A stretch of DNA of 64,000 bases, from assembly GCA_900315095.1 (NCBI GenBank), contig OMXS01000003.1, positions 124,001-188,000 of the forward strand. The letters are read 5' to 3'. Positions 2,433 to 43,685 of this stretch are shown piece by piece. Position numbers and translations under genes: made by a program. Position 1 is the stretch's first letter; each line of letters begins with the position of its first letter. The notes beneath the pieces were generated by a model. It was not told the DNA's origin, ran no database searches, and was given only the letters and a program-made list of their open reading frames with translations. Source of the stretch: an uncultured Prevotellaceae bacterium (GTDB lineage: Bacteria > Bacteroidota > Bacteroidia > Bacteroidales > Bacteroidaceae).

Positions 2433-2924
2433 AAGATTTCACGATAGTCCCTGAACTCATATTCTCATCTGTAAGCAGCTAATTTATACGCATACCCGAA
2501 AAGTTTATCCTTTCAGATATCCAACGTTTATAACTGACTAAGTTTTTATTGATTTTTAAATCTTAACCTTAGACGGTTATCGTCACGACTCGTCAAATCC
2601 TATGCACAATTTGCTATCTCTGCTCCGAGTTTTTTCGGAAAATAATTAGTGAAATTTAATCTGTGCCGCTCGGCTTCACCGCTTGTTCCAAAGGCCTCAA
2701 GAAAGGTATATCATCTTATATTCTCTTACCGCTCGGGCTTTGCACGCTTTTAAAGAACGTTTTCGGGCAGCCAAGAGCAGAGTCCAAATCTTGTTTGGCT
2801 ATGCCGAGGCAAGGAAAAGGTCGGAGAAAAACCAAAGAATACGTTTAAATTGGCCGCTTACTTATGAACGCTTAAAAAGAAATTGGGTGCTTACGTATTT
2901 TTGTTTGAATATTTTCTTATAAAA
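2433..2924. other. Gene-free gap with dispersed repeats
   Basis: No credible gene is visible here. Short frames on the plus strand are made of repeat sequence. A segment at 2701-2757 (beginning GAAAGGTATATCATC) recurs at 39451 and 45184. A 58-base block at 2768-2825 recurs at 47750-47807. The phrase TTATGAACG followed a little later by GTGCTTAC at 2863-2895 recurs near 36590-36620. The gap separates the distal end of the six-gene cassette from the last CPS genes. Confidence 0.7.
2701..2825 (+). repeat. Composite dispersed repeat (two modules)
   Basis: The first module (2701-2757) begins AAAGGTATATCATC and continues with a GCTCGGGCTTTG(C/T)ACGCTTT segment. It is shared with 39451-39503, and its first 14 bases with 45184-45197. 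The second module (2768-2825) matches 47750-47807 over 58 bases without gaps and with a few mismatches, including the shared run TGTTTGGCTATGCCGAGGCA. At 47750 this second module is read as the N-terminus of an M15 peptidase; here it is intergenic. Confidence 0.8.
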
Positions 2925-2944
2925 CACTCCCTTGTGAGGGAGTG
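2925..2944 (-). terminator. Hairpin terminator after the six-gene cassette
   Basis: A perfect 8-base stem (CACTCCCT / AGGGAGTG) with a 4-base loop. Read on the minus strand it is followed directly by TTTTAT, the layout of a rho-independent terminator for transcription arriving from the ATPase gene at 3196. A second weak GCCC/GGGC hairpin sits just upstream (2945-2960). It closes the cassette and separates it from the CPS genes further left. Confidence 0.6.
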
Positions 2945-2969
2945 CCCACCCCGAAGGGCAGTTGTCCTT

Positions 2970-3119
2970 TTATGAACGCCTGAACCAAAGACGTCTGTCT
3001 AGGCTACCTCGTAGCCGCCTGCAATGCTCTCGGACATACTCCCACTTTCCGAGACGGAAGCGAAAGTAGTCTGTCACATGTACAGGCTTTTCGACAGGGC
3101 ATGATAAACAACGTGCCAT
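2970..3119 (-). CDS. Possible small protein, 49 residues
   Basis: A short frame from the ATG at 3117-3119, beginning MARCLSCPVEKPVHV and containing a basic/aromatic stretch (DYFRFRLGKWEYVREHCRR) with three cysteines (positions 4, 7 and near 36). Its composition looks more protein-like than a random frame. It lies between the stop of the RecF-like ATPase (3196) and the terminator at 2925, so it would be the last gene of that transcript. I do not recognise the family. It could also be a remnant of a larger gene. Low confidence. Confidence 0.3.
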   Translation of the reverse strand: MARCLSCPVEKPVHVTDYFRFRLGKWEYVREHCRRLRGSLDRRLWFRRS

Positions 3120-3195
3120 ATCTTCTGTAACAATAAATATCAATAGACATTGTATTATCACTTCCGATATGATTGTTTAACTGCCTCATTTCATT

Positions 3196-4614
3196 CTACA
3201 TACCGTAGATATTGGTATGACGGAACGATTTCACATGATTCTCAAAGTATTTGAGTAGTTCAATTGAATGCCGTATTTCCTTATCCGTAAAAGTAGCCAT
3301 TGCTCCTGTGCTATGTGACAGCTGATGCAAAACAACCTTCTGGAACATCTTGAGTTCTCTGAGGATGTTTTTCACCTTTTCTATCTCCACATCCTTCTTA
3401 TACTTCTCAATCTCTGCTGTGATAATCGTCAGTTTATCGTGGTCTGCATCGTCACCAACAACTGTATTTATGATAGTATCCACCAAATCGCGACTTGTAT
3501 AAACAGTATCACCCTGCTTATGTATGTATATCGGTTTATTCTTGTCTATCATCCTTGCAAGGAGATTGCCGGAATCTTCAAAACAATCTACAAGGACGAG
3601 TTTGGCTAACTCATACATCACTGCCTCAAAACGACGGCGTATCTGATTGCCAGCCTCTTCACGATTGGTTGTTGCTGTATATTCTGCGAGTATAGCTTTG
3701 GCATCTTTCATCGTATTGTAACTGTACGCCTTGCTGTCATCAATACTCTCATAGATATTATACTCCTTCCATTTGTCGGGAATACCGTCAATAGCATTGC
3801 TCAGTTTCAAATGCGCCATATTGAAGAAACTGACATTGTGAGTAAGTAGTACTATCTGACAGTCTGAGAAATCACGGACTAGATAGTTCACGAGAAATAT
3901 CCTATTGGTGGCATCAAGACTGGTCACAATATCGTCAAGCACCAACAGTTTATCCTTACCTTCGGGAAGTGATGCCTTATGCAACTTCACGGTCTCAAAG
4001 AACAGAAGCAGTGCCACAAGGTGCAATTTAGCCTCATTCAGAAACTGACGGTAGTCTTTCTCTGGAGACACACCACGAGTAGCATCCTCTATCTTCAAAG
4101 TGTAATAAACATCAGCAAAGGATACTGTAAAATTCTCCTTGAAGTCATCATGAACTGCCTTGTTGATATTTTGCAAAAGTGTATCCAGGTTATCTCTAAA
4201 AAATGCATTCACGTCCATAGAGGGCATTGTAATGTCTTTAAGAAAATCTCCTGCACGTAGCACGTCACCCACCTGCACATTCTGATTACACAGCATATAG
4301 GTGGCATTGTCATCCATTGGAAAGGCTTCTCGCTTTACTCCGTTCACCTTCAGTTCAAAGTCAGCCTTGATAATCTGATTGTTGAAACCGCGCAAAAAGT
4401 TCTGCTTATCAGCCTCGGTTATCTCTCCTGCCTGCCCTTCTTTCTTCAATCCCGCCAAGATGCGATCTTGGTAGAAGAAAAGACGTAAGGCTTCATAGAG
4501 CGAACTCTTGCCGGAGCCATTCTCACCATATGCCAACATACTCTTGCCGTCAAGGTTGAACTCAACAGGTAGCCCAAAGGCTTTGAAGCTTGTTAGGCTA
4601 ATAGTATTAATCAT
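3196..4614 (-). CDS. RecF/SMC-like AAA ATPase (472 aa), last large gene of the cassette
   Basis: The Walker A motif GENGSGKSS lies at residues 30-38, right after the usual beta-strand start of RecF/AAA_15-type ATPases. The signature/Walker B region LLVLDDIVTSLD is near residue 225, followed by the switch strand VLLTHN near 258. The head halves are separated by only about 190 residues, so a long coiled coil is absent. The C-terminal 200 residues are helical and carry no domain I can name. Its start overlaps the end of the DUF262 gene by 8 bases, implying translational coupling. Such ATPases often power or gate a partner nuclease in defence systems; that role here is inferred from context. Confidence 0.8.
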   Translation of the reverse strand: MINTISLTSFKAFGLPVEFNLDGKSMLAYGENGSGKSSLYEALRLFFYQDRILAGLKKEGQAGEITEADKQNFLRGFNNQIIKADFELKVNGVKREAFPMDDNATYMLCNQNVQVGDVLRAGDFLKDITMPSMDVNAFFRDNLDTLLQNINKAVHDDFKENFTVSFADVYYTLKIEDATRGVSPEKDYRQFLNEAKLHLVALLLFFETVKLHKASLPEGKDKLLVLDDIVTSLDATNRIFLVNYLVRDFSDCQIVLLTHNVSFFNMAHLKLSNAIDGIPDKWKEYNIYESIDDSKAYSYNTMKDAKAILAEYTATTNREEAGNQIRRRFEAVMYELAKLVLVDCFEDSGNLLARMIDKNKPIYIHKQGDTVYTSRDLVDTIINTVVGDDADHDKLTIITAEIEKYKKDVEIEKVKNILRELKMFQKVVLHQLSHSTGAMATFTDKEIRHSIELLKYFENHVKSFRHTNIYGM

Positions 4615-6256
4615 TTTGGGGGTCTTTGAAGAAACTGTTCAATACTTGTTTCAGTTCGCTTGTTCGAACGACTAAATCTTCATAAGTTACCACAGGATGG
4701 GTTACCAGATAGTCTCGTACCTGCTTTATACCAGTATTCCCATAGTATCTACGTTTTTCTGAATAGGTCTTATTCTTCTTGCCGCAATCAAGGACGATAA
4801 AGTTGCCAAGGTCATCTACATGCTCATAGAAATCATGGCCCGTCCATGTTGAATCCAATTGCTTGTAGTCTTTCGACGTAAGAAGTTTGTCTATAGAGTA
4901 GTTAGTGATAGCTGTGGGTGACTGTAGATAATGTGCCAGCAGAGCATAGCCGTATTTTAGACGTCCTAGATAGTTGAAATAATTGTCATCAACACTCTTT
5001 TGATAATAGGGCTTAATGGGCAGGCTTATATACAGTTGACGGATGATATTGTATACTTCGAATTTCACCATGGTTGTAGAGCCTTGAAAATAGCAATAAC
5101 GTACCAACGATTTCAAGAATTCTATCGTCTGTGTTTCATTTGACTTTATCCCGTACTTGTAAGTGTATGCAACCAAAGCATACAAGGGGTAAATATTGCT
5201 ATAGGCATAAATCAATTGAATCCACGAAGCCAGTTCTGTTTTTTTGTTCATTTCCGCCCATATATCACGGAGCACCTCCAAGATATGCATCAGATCTTGC
5301 ATGACCTCGGTGTACCCTTTTTGGTTGAGTGGCGAATGGCTATCCTCAATAAAAAAGTCACGAAGACTCTTCTCTGCACCTGTAATACCCTTCTCCCCCC
5401 TCACTGTATGAGAATAAAAGCGAAAAGTGTCATCAATACTCAGATTCTGTTGTTCACAGGTGTTTTTGAATTCCACCCAAAGACCAATAAACTCTTTTTG
5501 ATCGTCCTCGGTGATGGCCTTGCCATAAAGCTTAGCCTTGAAAATGTCGGCATCCTGAAGGTCACGACCTCGGTTGTTGATAGTCTCAAAAATGGTGAGT
5601 GCCTTGTCATCAGCATCTTTCTGACTGTTACCGGTCAGTTCAATAGGCAACAGCGACACTTGTTCCAGAAAGTATTGTAGGAAATTTGTCACAGCATCCT
5701 TCCCGTACTGTTTGGCGTAGTCGCTAAACCAACTGTAGAAATAGAGACTGTTGGTAATGATATTGCTCTTGAACTTATTGGCACGAATATCACCCTGTCG
5801 GTTGCGAGCTTGAGTGAGTTTATTCTGGAAATCAGCATCGCTATAACCAGCGACCTCGCGAATATAGGTATCGTCGTCGGTCTCGAAAATGAGTGACTGC
5901 ACCTTCACTTCCTTATTCTTGCCATCCCATGAACGCACGGTGGTAATTTCGTCAAGCACCGGCACCTCATCAAGGATGACACTTAATGCCTTAAATGCCA
6001 GCCATAGGGTGATGATACGCTGCTGACCATCCACTATCTGCGGACGGTTGGCATCGCGGTTACTTCGTGAAATAATGATATTTCCAAGAAAATAATCGTT
6101 CTTGCCGTTGTACGCATCAATGATATCTGAATACATCTTTAGACAATGCTCATATTCCCAGCTATAAGGACGCTGGTACGACGGTATGATATATTTGTCG
6201 CGGGTAGTAAAAAGAGTCATCAAACTCTTCTGCTCCGCTGTTAATGATAATGCCAT
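4607..6256 (-). CDS. DUF262/GmrSD-like protein (549 aa)
   Basis: The N-terminus has the DUF262 signature: IPSYQRPYSW at residues 24-33 and DGQQR at 76-80, the motif tied to nucleotide-dependent activity in GmrS/SspE-type proteins. Helical sequence follows. The C-terminal 80 residues (DLGNFIVLDCGKKNKTYSEKRRYY) resemble the HNH-type DUF1524 domain of GmrSD enzymes in the GN-L-x-N-K-x-Y pattern. The usual H-x-x-P metal motif is not clear, with only GHDFYEHV at that position. GmrSD proteins cut modified phage DNA; related SspE senses phosphorothioate DNA. It lies 55 bases after a DNA methyltransferase gene and overlaps the following ATPase gene. DUF262 is secure; whether the nuclease half is active is not. 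Confidence 0.8.
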   Translation of the reverse strand: MALSLTAEQKSLMTLFTTRDKYIIPSYQRPYSWEYEHCLKMYSDIIDAYNGKNDYFLGNIIISRSNRDANRPQIVDGQQRIITLWLAFKALSVILDEVPVLDEITTVRSWDGKNKEVKVQSLIFETDDDTYIREVAGYSDADFQNKLTQARNRQGDIRANKFKSNIITNSLYFYSWFSDYAKQYGKDAVTNFLQYFLEQVSLLPIELTGNSQKDADDKALTIFETINNRGRDLQDADIFKAKLYGKAITEDDQKEFIGLWVEFKNTCEQQNLSIDDTFRFYSHTVRGEKGITGAEKSLRDFFIEDSHSPLNQKGYTEVMQDLMHILEVLRDIWAEMNKKTELASWIQLIYAYSNIYPLYALVAYTYKYGIKSNETQTIEFLKSLVRYCYFQGSTTMVKFEVYNIIRQLYISLPIKPYYQKSVDDNYFNYLGRLKYGYALLAHYLQSPTAITNYSIDKLLTSKDYKQLDSTWTGHDFYEHVDDLGNFIVLDCGKKNKTYSEKRRYYGNTGIKQVRDYLVTHPVVTYEDLVVRTSELKQVLNSFFKDPQND

Positions 6257-6311
6257 AATACCTTTTTTTATAAACCAAACTCTTTAAAGGACAACTCTCT
6301 TCGGTAATACA

Positions 6312-7604
6312 TTATTTTTCCATAACAATAACGCTCTCCCTCAATTTCTTTCCCAACAACCTACTTTGCTGAGGACTGGTCTTAATATCACGGGCTTTCC
6401 GTATTTCTTTTACAACAAAGCCACAGTCTTCCGCAATATCGCTAATAATATAGTCCACAGGGACCTCTACCCCAAAATATGCTGAATTGGCAACATTGAA
6501 ATAAACAATACCTCCCTTGCGCATTTTCTTAGAAAAAGCCGTGAACAGTTGTTTCATATCCTCAAAATAGCCGCATATCATATTAAATATGTCCGGATTC
6601 CATCTCTTTGTATCAGATTGCGTCATGTCTGACAAGCATTTTATCAGTCGAGGATTAGCGATAGGCTTCACTTCTGAATATTTTACTTGAACATGAGAGC
6701 GTATTGTGCTCTTGCGTAGTCTTTGCAAATCGTCATGACCACTTACCAATTGCAAAGTACGCAATTCCAACATATAAATATCTGTATAGTCACGGGAATT
6801 CAAATATGGAGGGGAAGTGATAATCAAATCTAAAGTATTGTCTGGAACAATCTCAATAGATTGGCGAACATCTCCATAATAACATATATCTACATTTTGG
6901 ACAGCCGTTTGTTGAGACGCTAATATTCGCACATCTTCTAATATCACTGTATCAAGTTGATTCAGAAAGAGGTTGTGTACTTCATCCCTTTTTATAATCT
7001 TTTTTTCCCATCCTTTTTTATATGAGAGGCATTTACCATTGCGGAATACATTGCTGGCCTGTAGAATAATGGAGGCCAATGCAATGGTAAAGAGACTCTT
7101 GTATCGTTCGTCGTCAACAACTGTTCTGATTGCATGTCGTATATCGAGAATCCCATCCAATGATGAATCATGGAAATTCCATTTCCTCAATCCATCCTTA
7201 CGCACTACTCTGTCTCCGAAAGGTACGGTCTCTACACTTCGAATGTCTGCTATAGGTTTAGCAAGTTTCTCGGATACCTTGTTCCGGTAGTTCTTGAGTG
7301 TTGACTCATCGTAGTTCCTTTCTAGTTTGACCTTGGCAAGGAGAAACATAAAGGGACTCACTTCAAAACTGTAACACCTGATGTCATGGTTTTGCAACTC
7401 AACCGGAGTCGTTCCGCTTCCACAGAATGGTTCCATAGCGCATTGCGGAGTGTAGGGCAGTTCCTTAAGTATCTCCTCAATAAACTCCTTGGAATAACCT
7501 TCAACAAAAGGATACCACCTGTGCACAAGAACATCTTTGTTCTTGCCAAACACCATGATTGAATCATACTTTTTAGTGCAGTCTATGAGTGGATAATCTC
7601 TCAT
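6312..7604 (-). CDS. DNA methyltransferase (adenine-N6 or cytosine-N4), 430 aa
   Basis: The SAM-binding motif FCGSGTT is at residues 60-66 and the catalytic motif SPPY near 263-266, with about 200 residues between them that could hold target recognition. This is the motif I then motif IV order. The C-terminal part has GGIVYFNVANSAYFG, another typical methyltransferase strand. The enzyme would methylate an exocyclic amino group in a specific DNA sequence, marking self DNA if the neighbouring nuclease-like genes restrict. It starts 9 bases after the stop of the PD-(D/E)XK gene and is followed by the DUF262 gene, so it lies in the middle of the cassette. Sequence specificity cannot be read by eye. 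Confidence 0.85.
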   Translation of the reverse strand: MRDYPLIDCTKKYDSIMVFGKNKDVLVHRWYPFVEGYSKEFIEEILKELPYTPQCAMEPFCGSGTTPVELQNHDIRCYSFEVSPFMFLLAKVKLERNYDESTLKNYRNKVSEKLAKPIADIRSVETVPFGDRVVRKDGLRKWNFHDSSLDGILDIRHAIRTVVDDERYKSLFTIALASIILQASNVFRNGKCLSYKKGWEKKIIKRDEVHNLFLNQLDTVILEDVRILASQQTAVQNVDICYYGDVRQSIEIVPDNTLDLIITSPPYLNSRDYTDIYMLELRTLQLVSGHDDLQRLRKSTIRSHVQVKYSEVKPIANPRLIKCLSDMTQSDTKRWNPDIFNMICGYFEDMKQLFTAFSKKMRKGGIVYFNVANSAYFGVEVPVDYIISDIAEDCGFVVKEIRKARDIKTSPQQSRLLGKKLRESVIVMEK

Positions 7605-7613
7605 GTGATTCTA

Positions 7614-8732
7614 TTATCGGGGCTTCTTATTGATAACTCTAAAATCAGCTACTTTTCTAAACTGTCGTTCGTATTTCTTATATGGTTCGTCAAGCATATC
7701 AGAATTGCGACCATCGCCACTGTCTCCTGCCACATCCTCTTTACGGGCATCGAAAACAACGAGATAACCTAATTTTACATGATAGGATAAATCGGAAAGC
7801 TCCTTTATATATCTGATTGTTTGCTTATAACCTTCGGGAACTACCTTGGGATTAGGATTGAAGGTTGAACCTATTTTCTTGCCAAGATGATGGATGCTGG
7901 TACCAACCCATTTTACCTCAATAAAGTATATACCCAGACCAGCCTCATCTTGTACCAGTATATCGATGCTGTCATCATTATTAAGTGTGTATTCCTTAGA
8001 GACTCTTGCGCGCATTACATCTTGCAAGTAGCCTAATAAATCATCCCTGAAATAGGCCTCTGGTTTATTCTTCACTAATTGCTTGTTAGCATCTATAAAG
8101 TCACTTTCAGACAAATCTGACTGTAAGTCCTTATGTAATGACCGCAATTCAGTCAGCGAAACAAAGAACTTCTGATAGTTATTGCTGTCAGTAATATGGA
8201 GGTTCCTGTAATCCTCGAGCACTTGATCCAGTTCATCAACAGTCTTTTTTCGTTTGTAAAGCGCCAAGTCGTCTGCTGTTGCGAAAAGTGCCCCGTGGTT
8301 GTGACCGTTGATAAAGTAACTCAACTCATTGCCACGTGCAAGTAGAAAAATAATCTTTCCGTCTTTGGATGCTTCGCTATACATCTGAATGGCCAGACTG
8401 CTGTCAGTAGCAAACTCTTCGTTATTAACAGCAAGAATCTTCAACTGGGCATCTATAACGACATGCCTATTTTTGATGAATTCATCACAGGAGAAAAGAC
8501 GCTTTACCAGTTCATCCATATCACTGGGTAACTTTGCAAGGTCGTCAGTGCCGATGGAGATACTCTTTACATCAACATCAGGGCTTTTGGCCAGTTCACT
8601 CATAATAAGTGAACGGAGCAACTTAAATTGAAATGTAGCGAGAATAGGCTCTGCCGCAAATTGCTCTATCCGTTCTTTCACACTCAGTATTTCGCTTCTG
8701 AATGATGCATTGTCAAAGTCTATCATATTCAT
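7614..8732 (-). CDS. PD-(D/E)XK-like nuclease protein (372 aa)
   Basis: The C-terminal third carries a restriction-nuclease-type core: YFRDDLLGYLQDVM, then SIDILVQ, a short turn, and IYFIEVKW around residues 255-273. This gives the D...E-x-K arrangement of the PD-(D/E)XK fold, and a helix with YKQTIRYIKEL follows. The N-terminal 200 residues are helical and unrecognised, and may bind the partner protein or DNA. The ATG follows immediately on the TGA of the preceding gene; a second Met two codons later is an alternative start. Between an SMC-like ATPase pair and a methyltransferase, a DNA-cleaving effector is the most likely role. The fold assignment rests on motif pattern only. Confidence 0.6.
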   Translation of the reverse strand: MNMIDFDNASFRSEILSVKERIEQFAAEPILATFQFKLLRSLIMSELAKSPDVDVKSISIGTDDLAKLPSDMDELVKRLFSCDEFIKNRHVVIDAQLKILAVNNEEFATDSSLAIQMYSEASKDGKIIFLLARGNELSYFINGHNHGALFATADDLALYKRKKTVDELDQVLEDYRNLHITDSNNYQKFFVSLTELRSLHKDLQSDLSESDFIDANKQLVKNKPEAYFRDDLLGYLQDVMRARVSKEYTLNNDDSIDILVQDEAGLGIYFIEVKWVGTSIHHLGKKIGSTFNPNPKVVPEGYKQTIRYIKELSDLSYHVKLGYLVVFDARKEDVAGDSGDGRNSDMLDEPYKKYERQFRKVADFRVINKKPR

Positions 8733-9332
8733 TCAGTTGCCTTTAATGATTCTACCGAAGAGGTACTCAAAATACAAATCAATATACTGCTCGTCTGACA
8801 GGACGACACTCTGGTCAAGGGTTTCCTCAAAACTTGCCTTGAACTTGTTGAGGACCTTTACAGTAAGGCTCTCTGCAGAGGCATCAAGCTCTACGTTGCG
8901 GTTTGTTTTTACCGCATGGTCATAGGAGGGGTCGTTAATAACGAAACCGAAAATTTTGTCTTCTCCATATTTCCCTAACAAAAGCAATATAAAACGCAGC
9001 CAAGACAACTTCTGTTCAGGGAAGTGGTCCAGCAGCGATTTATCGCTGTTGAAAGTATACATCTCATCCTTCTCTATCAACTTGTCGGAACTGGACAGAT
9101 AGACCAGAGCGTTGTTCACCTGAACGGAGTAGGGACCATTGATGATGGCAGTGAAATGATAGTTGGCAAAAAATGATGCCGTTTCTCCATGACGAAAAAC
9201 GTAAAGCACCTTCGCAAGATACAGTATCCTGTGGAACGAAAGACTGGCTATACTCTCCCATCCTATTTCTTTTCCATAATAGGATATAGCCATCATATCT
9301 TCATTGGCTGAATATAATGTACTACTGTTCAT
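8733..9332 (-). CDS. Small winged-helix-like protein, ABC-3C middle-component-like (199 aa)
   Basis: A 199-residue helical protein with no catalytic motif. The stretch ILYLAKVLYVF ... GPYSVQVNNALVYLSSSDKL resembles a winged helix with the GPY/GPxS turn also seen in Panacea and ABC-3C middle components. It overlaps the upstream SMC-like ATPase gene by 4 bases (ATGA) and abuts the nuclease gene (TGA-ATG), so the three proteins are probably made together and may form one complex. ABC-three-component systems have this ATPase / small middle component / effector layout. Assignment to that class is inference from order and size, not a domain match. Confidence 0.5.
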   Translation of the reverse strand: MNSSTLYSANEDMMAISYYGKEIGWESIASLSFHRILYLAKVLYVFRHGETASFFANYHFTAIINGPYSVQVNNALVYLSSSDKLIEKDEMYTFNSDKSLLDHFPEQKLSWLRFILLLLGKYGEDKIFGFVINDPSYDHAVKTNRNVELDASAESLTVKVLNKFKASFEETLDQSVVLSDEQYIDLYFEYLFGRIIKGN

Positions 9333-11329
9333 TTTTTTGACATTTCTTTAATTTTGTTATACAATCCCTTTAACTGTGCACTGGAGTTCTGAATCATCGA
9401 CTGTTTAGCGATATCCAACAAGCCAACAACATCAATGTAGCCTTCACTGTTCTCTATCAGATATCTGAGGAATGTGCTGTTATTAAGATTGGAAGTAATT
9501 ATAATTGAATTGGGCTTCTCTAAGAATTGCAAGAACACCTTGGCAGCATTATGCTCGTAAGATATGTCCAAACTACTGTCTGGTGTCTCGACGATATAAA
9601 AAGTCGGTCGCTGGTAGAAGAACGTCAGTATAGTCATTCGGAAAGAATGGTCGATAAAAAATCGCTGTGATTCAGACAACTCTTCCTCATTTTTGCGGGT
9701 GATGCCCGCAATGACGGGATAAAATCTCTCAGTAGTATCATCATCCAGTTTCGTGTAGGTGAGTTTACATTCTACACCCAAAAACTGTTCTGCATAAGAG
9801 GAGAATATTCTGGAAAATTGTAGGACGTTCTCTGTAACCTCGGCAACCATACGGTTGGAAATCTCTGTTGCTTTGGCTGACTCTGCTATGCTCCTTTGTT
9901 GGTTCTCGTCTTTTTCGCGCTGCAAACGATCCATCTCTTCAAGGAATGGCTGTATCTCTCCGCCATGAGGGATCTCTTGGGAATTGGCATACTGCAATTC
10001 GCGCAACGCACTATTCAAATTGCGGACATGGGTGCTCTGTTTCTCGAATTTTGAATCACCATCTCTAACTTCACTTTCCAAGCGGTTGATTTCCCGTTTC
10101 TTTTCATTAATGAAATTGTATGTTGAGGTCAAAACACCTTGAACTTCCTTGTACTGTTGCGTTAAATCATCGGCAGCATGTTTTTCCAAAAGGGAATCGC
10201 AAACAAAACAATTATCTGAACTGTTTTCTACTTTTGCTGCAAGGGCTTCGTTGGGTTTATTACACAGAGGGCATACATGATTAAATCTTATATTCCGCTC
10301 AAACTTATAGTACGATGGGTGAACAGTTTCCCATATCTGCGAATTACGCTTACTCTCTAATTGGGCCTTTTTCCTCTCTGATTCAGCTACGCGAGCACTG
10401 GCTATATTGATTTCATTTTCAAGAGTTTCTATGCGTGCCATCCGATTGCGCTGCTCTTTTTGTATCTGCTTCAATTGCGCAGAAGCTTCAGAGATTTTCT
10501 CTTTAAGTTCAATTATTCGTAATGGGATATCGTTTGAATGCTTCTGTTTCTTGGCCGCATCAATTTTGTCGAGTACCTTCTTGATGGCTCGCATGTCTTC
10601 TGAACGATGGCGTGACAAACTGTCATAATACTTCGCATGGCGTAGTGCTTCCTGCCTCTCCTCGTCCAACTTGGGGTCGTTAAAATACTTATTAAATAAC
10701 TCATCCTGAACATCTATTGCGGAACCCGACATTGAATTGCTCCACATAATTGTCTTATGATCCTCTCCAAAGAACAGTACTTCATTAACAAAGACAATCA
10801 GGTCATCGAACGTAATATTTGCATAACGCTCTACCTCTTCCTCGTATTTATACAGCAAATATGGGTGCTTTTCCGTTTCGGTCAACCTCTCGTATTTGGC
10901 TTGAGTTATATATTCTCCAGTGATGGGCTGACCATTGACTTCTACAGAGAGAATGCAAATCTCTTCAAGTCCTCTTTTTACTTTAAACTCAGCATCGTGA
11001 ATCTTGAAGACAAGTTCCACGTATGGTTGTTCGCCATCTGTGGCTATGCTTGCATCCATCCTGTTACTAAAATAGGTTGGAGAGTTTTCCTGCCGGCGCT
11101 GGATCATCTTATCAAGATACGTCCGTCGGAAATCAAAACGATTCTTGTAATTCCCAAGGATTCCATATTTGATAAGATTAACAAACGTTGTCTTTCCCAT
11201 ACCATTGCCGCCCAAGACCAAATTCACACCCTTAATGAAATCAAAAGTATAATTCAGACCGTTCGGATACAAGGTATAGTTCTTGATATGTATACGCTGT
11301 AACTCGGGCAGATATATTATGCGACTCAT
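9329..11329 (-). CDS. SMC/Rad50-like ATPase with paired CxxC motifs (666 aa)
   Basis: Walker A GGNGMGKTT is at residues 40-48. Two coiled-coil arms follow (about 230-340 and 385-470) around a middle insert with CPLC near 353 and CFVC near 372, a four-cysteine set that could bind zinc at a hook or hinge. The C-terminal head has YIVETPDSSLD near 585 in the signature/Walker B position and IIITSNLNNS near 610 as the switch strand. Residue E in the usual DE pair appears replaced (TPDSS). At 666 residues it is shorter than Rad50 or SMC. It is the first gene of the cassette, 87 bases after pseI, behind a candidate promoter at 11351. Likely DNA sensor/motor of the system. Confidence 0.8.
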   Translation of the reverse strand: MSRIIYLPELQRIHIKNYTLYPNGLNYTFDFIKGVNLVLGGNGMGKTTFVNLIKYGILGNYKNRFDFRRTYLDKMIQRRQENSPTYFSNRMDASIATDGEQPYVELVFKIHDAEFKVKRGLEEICILSVEVNGQPITGEYITQAKYERLTETEKHPYLLYKYEEEVERYANITFDDLIVFVNEVLFFGEDHKTIMWSNSMSGSAIDVQDELFNKYFNDPKLDEERQEALRHAKYYDSLSRHRSEDMRAIKKVLDKIDAAKKQKHSNDIPLRIIELKEKISEASAQLKQIQKEQRNRMARIETLENEINIASARVAESERKKAQLESKRNSQIWETVHPSYYKFERNIRFNHVCPLCNKPNEALAAKVENSSDNCFVCDSLLEKHAADDLTQQYKEVQGVLTSTYNFINEKKREINRLESEVRDGDSKFEKQSTHVRNLNSALRELQYANSQEIPHGGEIQPFLEEMDRLQREKDENQQRSIAESAKATEISNRMVAEVTENVLQFSRIFSSYAEQFLGVECKLTYTKLDDDTTERFYPVIAGITRKNEEELSESQRFFIDHSFRMTILTFFYQRPTFYIVETPDSSLDISYEHNAAKVFLQFLEKPNSIIITSNLNNSTFLRYLIENSEGYIDVVGLLDIAKQSMIQNSSAQLKGLYNKIKEMSKK

Positions 11330-11350
11330 GTTATCAATCTTTTAATTCCA

Positions 11351-11358
11351 CAAAATTA
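11351..11358 (-). promoter_or_regulatory. Candidate -7 promoter element for the six-gene cassette
   Basis: On the minus strand the octamer TAATTTTG matches the Bacteroidota -7 consensus TAnnTTTG and lies about 20 bases before the ATG of the SMC-like ATPase. A well-spaced -33 TTG is not obvious (one TTG is only 12 bases upstream). It sits in the 87-base gap after pseI, so the cassette may be transcribed on its own as well as from the CPS operon. Confidence 0.4.
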
Positions 11359-11416: not shown

Positions 11417-12421
11417 TTAACCAATAATCATTTTCATCTCGAACCTCTCCCCTTTCTCACAATCCTTCACAAACCTTTTCCCAAGCACCTCAGGTAGATA
11501 CTTCGGATGTAATCCATAGCCGGGTCTTACACTGCGTACATTTTTTTCAGTTACAACATCCCCAGCCTTCACATTCTCTGCCACATAAAGAGACCTTCTA
11601 CGCCCCTTATCTTTCTCGGATACGTCATAAGTAACGGTGCCTAAAGAGGCTTCAACTTCGCGCACGACCTTAACCATTGAAGCAAATTCTTCAGGATTTA
11701 AAGAAAATTGTGAGTCAATCCCACCCAGTGAACGGTCAAGTATGAAATGCTTTTCAACAACAGTAGCCCCAAGTGCTACAGCTACCATGGGGATAGTATT
11801 TGTCATAGAATGATCAGATACACCGACCTTAACACGATAGCGCTCTTTCATATCTACCATTGTCTGTAAGTTCGCTTTTTCAAGAGATGCAGGATAGTCA
11901 GAAGTACACTTAAGCAGTGTTATATCAAAGTTCTTCTCTTCACGGCAAATTTGTATTGCAAGTTCTATGTCTTCTTGTGTTGCCACTCCAGTTGAAATAA
12001 TCATTGGCTTGTGTTTGCTTGCAATATAACGTATAAGATTCACGTCCGTTATTTCGAATGAAGCTATTTTATAAATAGGCATATTCATCTGCTCCATAAA
12101 GTCAACTGCCTCATTATCAAAAGGTGTTGAGAAGCATGTAACTCCCAAGTCTTTACATACCTGCTGTAGTTTTGGCTGCCATTCGTAAGGCATAGCCCCT
12201 TGAGTGTATAGGTCTATTGGGCGGTATCCCTTCCAAAGGCCATCTTTACGAGGGCCAAAATCCTCAGTTCTAGCGTCCATTGTGAAAGAGTCAGGCCTAA
12301 ATGTTTGAAACTTAACGGCATCAGCCCCTGACTTTGCCATTGCTTCTATAGTTTTAACCGCAAGGTCAAAATCGTTGTTATGGTTTGCCGAAAGTTCAGC
12401 AACTATCATCGTCTTATTCAT
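11417..12421 (-). CDS. pseI: Pseudaminic acid synthase
   Basis: A NeuB-family protein of 334 residues. It condenses phosphoenolpyruvate with a 2,4-diacetamido-hexose to make the nonulosonic acid. The N-terminal TIM barrel starts with the family motif AELSANHNNDF and contains ADAVKFQT, FSTPFD, KIASFEI, STGVAT and VEKHFILDRS. The C-terminal SAF (antifreeze-like) domain begins near residue 275 (SLYVAENVKAGDVV) and holds VRPGYGLHPKYL, a segment more typical of PseI than of sialic acid NeuB. It is the last pse gene in transcription order, 223 bases after pseG. The pathway assignment is supported by PseB, PseC, PseG and PseF encoded upstream. Confidence 0.9.
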   Translation of the reverse strand: MNKTMIVAELSANHNNDFDLAVKTIEAMAKSGADAVKFQTFRPDSFTMDARTEDFGPRKDGLWKGYRPIDLYTQGAMPYEWQPKLQQVCKDLGVTCFSTPFDNEAVDFMEQMNMPIYKIASFEITDVNLIRYIASKHKPMIISTGVATQEDIELAIQICREEKNFDITLLKCTSDYPASLEKANLQTMVDMKERYRVKVGVSDHSMTNTIPMVAVALGATVVEKHFILDRSLGGIDSQFSLNPEEFASMVKVVREVEASLGTVTYDVSEKDKGRRRSLYVAENVKAGDVVTEKNVRSVRPGYGLHPKYLPEVLGKRFVKDCEKGERFEMKMIIG

Positions 12422-43107: not shown

Positions 43108-43685
43108 GACAAAGCCTTGCGGTTTAATTGGCGTTCTCTTATGACGCTCAGCATATCTTTGCTGGCACCTCCTGAAGCTGCCATATCATATAACGTTATC
43201 TTAGTGTCTTCGCCTGTCTTCTCTGCTTGACGTTTTGCTTTCAACCATGCTTTATCATGAGAAAGTTCTGATAAGTCAAAAGATGCGATTTCCTTACAAT
43301 GGGCAATCCATTTGTCCAATATGCGAATGTTACTTCTGGACAATTCATCCATATCCACCTCAAAATCATTAGATAGACTAACAACCTGATGCCCATTACT
43401 CTGACTAAGAAGCAATTCTGAAGCAAATTCATTTAAGTCTTCAGTCACATCGATGGCTTTACCTTCTGCTAGACGCAACACCTTATAAGTAAGCGAAGGT
43501 ACTGGACCGTGTTTGCGAGCTACAAATGTGTCGTACATAATGGGAATGCCATACAGAGCCAGGTGCTCTTCTTGGGCAAAATACATAACTTTGAATAGGT
43601 GAATGTAGTCAACGGCTACCCCCATCTGTTGCAGTATGTATTCCACCACTGCTTTAATTTTTAGTATTTGATCAGTTGTTTTCAT
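43098..43685 (-). CDS. Panacea/SocA-type (DUF4065) antitoxin-like protein (195 aa)
   Basis: KIKAVVEYILQQMG, IHLFKVMYFAQEEHLALYG and VARKHGPVPSLTYKVLR form the Panacea core, a winged-helix-like domain first named from SocA proteins and later found as a general antitoxin with many toxin partners. Length is typical. The downstream overlapping gene (42631) is the expected toxin. Upstream lies a dehydrogenase fossil, so the pair sits on its own. Family call is good; the TA function is inferred from gene order. Confidence 0.75.
   Translation of the reverse strand: MKTTDQILKIKAVVEYILQQMGVAVDYIHLFKVMYFAQEEHLALYGIPIMYDTFVARKHGPVPSLTYKVLRLAEGKAIDVTEDLNEFASELLLSQSNGHQVVSLSNDFEVDMDELSRSNIRILDKWIAHCKEIASFDLSELSHDKAWLKAKRQAEKTGEDTKITLYDMAASGGASKDMLSVIRERQLNRKALSWI

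Follow-up and report, generated by a model that had tools for sequence, protein, structure and literature searches.

We describe here a set of four adjacent genes, encoding an SMC-like ATPase, a small middle protein (MC), a two-domain nuclease and a DNA methyltransferase, which lies in a 64,000-nucleotide stretch (the window) of a 320,541-base contig in the 3.24-Mb genome of an uncultured Prevotellaceae bacterium. We consider it probable that these four genes form a restriction-modification (R-M)-type defence system, in which a Lamassu-like SMC complex is the restriction arm and methylation protects self DNA. The initial annotation of the window had placed them in a run of six minus-strand open reading frames (ORFs), at 3196-11329, read as one system. 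Those ORFs were confirmed, together with their spacing, which from the SMC gene to the RecF-like gene at the other end is a 4-nt overlap, a direct TGA-ATG junction, a 9-nt gap, a 55-nt gap and an 8-nt overlap. The genes of the conserved set are as follows:

9329..11329, minus strand: gene 1, SMC-like ATPase, 666 amino acids, zinc-hook, LmuB-related
8733..9332, minus strand: gene 2, middle protein (MC), 199 amino acids, probably a divergent Panacea/SocA-like protein
7614..8732, minus strand: gene 3, two-domain nuclease, 372 amino acids, with an N-terminal domain weakly DisA-like in the model and a C-terminal PD-(D/E)XK domain
6312..7604, minus strand: gene 4, DNA methyltransferase, 430 amino acids, type II family, predicted to be N4-cytosine-specific

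Related loci were sought with the nuclease (P0003) as the sole probe: two peptide patterns, made from three aligned nucleases, were scanned against genome_contigs, with one genome per species for 84,980 species, and 16 of the 135 matches encode a relative. When the six window proteins were searched against these loci by tblastn, the SMC, MC, nuclease and methyltransferase genes were contiguous and on one strand in all 16, and the DUF262 and RecF-like genes were found in none (tblastn, E<=1e-3; phmmer at E<=1 agrees); at least 3.2 kb follows the last gene in 12 of them, and L009, L011, L014 and L021 stop within 0.8 kb. The conserved unit is SMC-MC-nuclease-methyltransferase. The single six-gene system proposed earlier must therefore give way to a four-gene one, present at 16 loci as against none for all six, and the order of six families for which a search had been suggested was recovered at none. 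The four genes remain linked even where their order changes, the methyltransferase coming last in 11 loci (L006-L015 and L021) and first in five (L016-L020), with the other three in the order SMC-MC-nuclease throughout.

The record titles of the loci name Bacteroidales, Bacteroidaceae, Bacteroides, Prevotella, Lachnospiraceae, Clostridium, Spirochaetales, Spirochaetaceae and Chloroflexi, L009 and L016 being titled simply 'bacterium'. Since some are near-copies (L006 and L007, L011 and L012), the 16 loci represent fewer independent lineages; L006 and L008 are contigs also present in our genome collections as G381 and G126. The nuclease was found in two of 201 family and two of 295 order genomes, the window genome being counted both times, in none of 72,556 plasmid and 50,697 phage records, and in no viral contig (two peptide patterns).

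Most of the family calls made earlier, for the SMC-like ATPase with its CxxC pairs, the methyltransferase, the DUF262 protein and the RecF-like ATPase, are borne out by Pfam matches. The SMC-like ATPase matches AAA_23 in Pfam (6e-11), its best PADLOC match is LmuB (3.7e-19, residues 12-626), and a sequence search of its profile against solved structures gave Rad50 and SMC as top matches. The hook cysteines form CxxC pairs at 353/356 and 374/377, and the Walker A motif, all four hook cysteines and the SESQ motif are kept in 18 of 18 aligned rows. In the same 18 rows the sequence of the Walker B/D-loop segment is ETP(D/E)xSLD, where the canonical form is DEPTxxLD; on this alignment, a threonine appears to replace the catalytic glutamate and a glutamate the Walker B aspartate. 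In LmuB the catalytic position generally carries a Glu-to-Gln change suggesting low or no hydrolysis (PMC10586767; here and below, published work is cited from excerpts of the papers), and by analogy this SMC may hydrolyse ATP slowly.

The PD-(D/E)XK-like nuclease proposed earlier also stands, its core being visible in the alignment and in the structure model, with no Pfam match over the cut-off. Residues P224, E225, E247, E272, K274, Q304 and Y308 are invariant in 18 of 18 rows, and these, with the model, identify a C-terminal PD-(D/E)XK core. Comparison of the modelled fold, using VIA-align, suggests a weak resemblance of the N-terminal domain to the DisA fold. Diadenylate cyclases carry the catalytic motifs DGA and RHR; both are absent from the window nuclease and from the compared segment of 17 rows, and homology of the N-terminus to diadenylate cyclases is unsupported by sequence. 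Searched by sequence against solved structures, the nuclease gave no match, and LmuA was matched by one of the 18 rows (PADLOC, 0.0013).

The middle protein of the window has no Pfam match, and a sequence comparison with solved structures returned a single match, at 0.7. Within the family, PF13274 (SocA_Panacea) is matched by three of the 18 rows (best 0.0082), and one row has a stronger match to Cullin (0.00082), which we take to be due to chance. PADLOC matched PDC-M19A in eight rows and DarG in five; neither LmuC (PADLOC, E<=0.01) nor an ABC-3C family (Pfam, E<=0.1) was found among the 18, thresholds that divergent members could escape. With hhalign, the 17-row MC profile against 14 Panacea proteins gave 80.3% (E 1.4e-5, 154 columns), compared with 12.8% for the best of 40 column shuffles and at most 1.0% for reversed profiles. 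The swapped comparison gave 49%, rows L006-L015 with the window 70%, and rows L016-L020 only 0.3%. The residues G66-P67, invariant in 18 of 18 rows, align with the Panacea GPV motif, which is described as critical for neutralisation (PMC8832971). Together, these results give moderate support to the view that the middle protein is a divergent Panacea-like protein. Elsewhere in the window, at 43245-43598 on the minus strand (G000:C26:167245-167598), there is a gene of the Panacea (SocA-like) antitoxin family, with a Pfam match over the cut-off (1.8e-18).

The methyltransferase matches N6_N4_Mtase in Pfam (2.6e-6) and MTase_II in PADLOC (9.3e-50), and in 18 of 18 rows an FxGSGTT motif lies upstream of SPPY, as expected of a type II family enzyme with intact motifs. 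We take SPPY to indicate N4-cytosine, the predicted target. Among 247 order genomes there were 12 matches at E<=1e-20, namely the window, G381 (68% identical) and ten at 24-31%; only the window and G381 carry the set, and in the ten others no SMC, MC or nuclease was found in the stretches examined, some of which are short. Within the genus, two of 151 genomes match at E<=1e-40, the second (G925) at 73%. This distribution points to a dedicated methyltransferase clade. Every one of the 45 matching plasmid records is below 60% identity, and six of these regions were inspected. In two, the distant homologue adjoins an annotated type II restriction enzyme, one of the AvaI/BsoBI family. In another, a 3.2-Mb Burkholderia replicon (L034) and the one plasmid record in which the SMC was found, the methyltransferase and an adjoining SMC gene are followed by two genes at the MC and nuclease positions; an Azospirillum region (L035) holds a rearranged version, with the SMC gene nearby on the opposite strand to the methyltransferase. 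The Burkholderia stagnalis region also encodes a second, divergent SMC of the family (2e-71; L034 5148-7175, minus strand), in opposite orientation to the first and separated from it by the methyltransferase gene.

In the reading that we favour, the methyltransferase would mark a specific sequence in host DNA, the predicted site being N4 of cytosine. The SMC-like ATPase would dimerise through its zinc hook and, joined by the PD-(D/E)XK protein and the Panacea-like middle protein, would make up a Lamassu-like complex, which would engage unmarked DNA such as that of an incoming phage or plasmid. The middle protein, hypothetically an inhibitor of the nuclease, would keep it in check until an ATP-driven rearrangement or closure of the SMC heads frees it to cut the foreign DNA. 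The defence function suggested in the initial annotation thus survives in part: the methyltransferase plausibly marks self and the ATPase-nuclease module is its conserved partner, but the six-gene unit does not hold. The direction proposed there, a modification-dependent (type IV) restriction, is less likely than a modification-protected one, because a dedicated type II-family methyltransferase is always co-inherited with the module.

The set shares features with several known systems. The short zinc-hook, LmuB-related SMC, the small middle protein and the PD-(D/E)XK nuclease recall Lamassu, ABC-3C and DdmABC, and the altered catalytic position of Walker B, threonine here, is glutamine in place of glutamate in LmuB (PMC10586767). 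It differs from Lamassu in that PADLOC found no LmuC, the middle protein being Panacea-like, in that LmuA was matched by the single nuclease row noted above, and in the presence of a methyltransferase in 16 of 16 loci. The family and motif layout of the methyltransferase, and the homologues beside type II enzymes, are those of AvaI/BsoBI-type type II R-M systems, although it is only about 25% identical to the methyltransferases beside the two type II enzymes; in the set, however, the SMC, middle protein and two-domain nuclease replace the single restriction enzyme, and in place of a stand-alone, ATPase-free endonuclease the nuclease accompanies the SMC and middle protein in all 16 loci. Systems with a CxC ABC-ATPase and DndE, including PbeABCD, likewise have a zinc-hook ABC ATPase and sometimes cytosine C5 or N4 methylases nearby (PMC10853773), but DndE and the HKD nuclease-SF2 helicase that belong to those systems are not named among the six genes here. 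Unlike Panacea (DUF4065/SocA) systems, the middle protein lies beside an SMC and a nuclease rather than in a two-gene toxin-antitoxin pair, and its similarity is below the Pfam cut-off. MADS, PDC-M19 and Dnd were considered and set aside, having just single-component or weak matches among the PADLOC matches listed.

Several observations weigh against an R-M-type system. No part identified in the set would give the restriction arm the sequence specificity of the methyltransferase, and Lamassu effectors, as presented in the excerpts of PMC10586767, act without discriminating host from invader, a mode of action for which methylation is unnecessary. Only the methyltransferase and SMC are recognisable by profile in the Burkholderia and Azospirillum regions, so that their small genes can be equated with those of the middle protein and nuclease by position only, and the Azospirillum SMC is two ORFs in the deposited record (L035 12500-14700, minus strand). 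In addition, the gene trees place the window differently: by SMC and nuclease it belongs with L006-L009 (support 87 and 86) and by MC with L016-L020 (84), and its methyltransferase falls within L010-L015. A grouping of the window with L006-L009 is rejected by the methyltransferase data (p 0.008), which also reject, with less force, an L010-L015 clade that leaves the window out (p 0.027); the SMC and nuclease data do not reject the grouping of the methyltransferase (p 0.16 and 0.30). The groups for these tests were chosen after the trees were seen. Exchange of the methyltransferase between lineages is therefore possible. On the side of the favoured reading, pairwise identities of the four proteins correlate (Pearson 0.89-0.98; 136 pairs, 17 loci), although shared descent alone would predict this.

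The main rival, possible but in our judgement unlikely, is an abortive-infection variant of Lamassu in which the SMC senses a DNA structure arising on infection and the nuclease is released on all the DNA of the cell, the methyltransferase being a guard or regulator that might, for example, protect the host's own sites until infection occurs, or be the thing under surveillance. The LmuB type of the SMC fits this account, as does the threonine at the catalytic-glutamate position in 18 of 18 rows, paralleling the LmuB Glu-to-Gln change, which has been taken to mean that hydrolysis is slow and activation irreversible (PMC10586767), and a Panacea-like middle protein suits a toxin held in check. 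However, ordinary Lamassu, as described in the excerpts of that paper, has three components and no methyltransferase, and here a methyltransferase is present in all 16 loci. A more elaborate form of the R-M reading, offered as a long shot of similar standing, is that the set is a distinct R-M class: a non-cycling, zinc-hooked SMC clamp would gate restriction, the Panacea-type middle protein would be a built-in antitoxin to the nuclease, a catalytically dead diadenylate-cyclase-like domain of the nuclease would read a nucleotide or DNA-structure signal, and cutting would need both an unmethylated target and this second cue.

We think it improbable that the set is not mainly concerned with defence and is instead an SMC-nuclease complex for DNA processing or repair with a methyltransferase, or an addiction module maintaining its carrier DNA, because it is rare and patchy among family and order genomes and has defence genes among several of its neighbours. 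Ten proteins from the flanks of the other loci, hand-picked from 109 listed flanking ORFs, were scanned, and six of them look defence-like: a ResIII/T5orf172 protein, a type ISP R-M protein, a Schlafen-type helicase, an AbiEii-type ATPase, an AAA_5 protein and a protein with a FokI cleavage domain. The Bacteroides caecigallinarum set (L008 6500-11530) adjoins the type ISP protein, of 1676 amino acids, followed by an ORF that by eye is integrase-like; the AbiEii-type ATPase (L012 12773-14245) and the FokI-domain protein (L020 9280-10908) also lie near the set. Least probable is a composite modification-dependent restriction system made of all six genes with two ATPase-nuclease modules, since, for all its tight spacing on one strand, the two downstream genes are missing from all 16 loci (12 with enough downstream DNA) and the HNH motif of the DUF262 protein is degenerate.

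Those two genes, outside the conserved set, are:

4607..6256, minus strand: DUF262 (GmrSD_N) protein, 549 amino acids, degenerate C-terminal HNH motif
3196..4614, minus strand: RecF-like ABC ATPase, 472 amino acids, AAA_13/SMC_N 6.9e-12

The DUF262 protein matches GmrSD_N/DUF262 in Pfam (1e-32), with no second Pfam domain listed, and retains the QRPYSW and DGQQR motifs. It thus resembles GmrSD and SspE in its DUF262 domain but is without the HNH histidine motif, the EHI of the HNH segment in two relatives being KQL here, and is perhaps active through its N-terminal domain only. At E<=1e-15, a search of 395 Bacteroidota genomes recovered the RecF-like ATPase from the window genome alone; at E<=1e-3, seven others of 201 family genomes gave partial matches in longer proteins, four of which scored E 1e-14 to 1e-20 along their full ORF when searched locally on a small scale. 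Its gene was found in no viral contig (six peptide patterns), nor beside the two DUF262 relatives inspected. Adjacency is the sole tie between this pair and the four-gene set, and the two genes probably form a separate neighbouring module, unrelated to the set.

Two candidate signals bracket the six ORFs:

11351..11358, minus strand: TAATTTTG, candidate Bacteroidota-type -7 element, the motif being at chance frequency in the window
about 2924..2945, minus strand: hairpin then UUUU, terminator candidate, z -3.0 (61-nt stretch)

The TAnnTTTG element of the initial annotation, which we take to be the Bacteroidota-type -7 consensus, is present, but the motif is no more frequent in the window than expected by chance (75 found, 64.4 +/- 7.6 expected; 11 of 100 shuffles reach 75). 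The hairpin and U-tract noted there fold well (two of 200 shuffles equally stable) and are plausible as a terminator, although they lie some 250 nt past the last stop and are absent from the terminator-scan listing. The non-coding stretch at 2440-3195 contains an element, roughly 80 bp long (2754-2835), that is repeated in the genome: the 756-base query partially matched 13 other places at 75-90% identity, of which 12 fall on the element, three of them in tandem on contig C37, and one on the stretch just before it.

NeuB (11420-12421) lies on one side of the six ORFs and a polysialyltransferase-like gene (1299-2432) on the other, and a cytidylyltransferase gene is also among the flanking genes, all of which fits a sialic-acid capsule locus; a relative of the polysialyltransferase was found in one other of 81 genus genomes (42% identical). 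The cassette has a G+C content of 0.38-0.43 in 1-kb steps, and the flanks mostly 0.33-0.38, rising to 0.39-0.40 at 11.5-12.5 and 16-18.5 kb. The cassette is possibly an insert, base composition by itself being insufficient to show insertion.

In searches of the open-licence PMC literature we recognised no description of a system combining an SMC, a Panacea-like protein, a PD-(D/E)XK nuclease and a methyltransferase; Krishnan et al. (2020) are cited for ABC-ATPase-anchored R-M-like systems (PMC12839542, in excerpt), and an earlier mention of the arrangement is therefore quite possible. The cue sensed by Lamassu-type SMC systems is described as poorly understood (PMC10586767). How such systems spare the host is likewise an open point; for one branch, a Lamassu-like complex constantly accompanied by its own methyltransferase would supply an answer, DNA methylation being what defines self. 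With four genes in about 5 kb and occurrences in several phyla, the set lends itself to tests in laboratory hosts. If the reading is correct, a protein of the antitoxin type (Panacea) would be part of an SMC complex, two large classes of defence, SMC-based and R-M, would be joined, and it could be tested directly whether an SMC clamp tells self from non-self.

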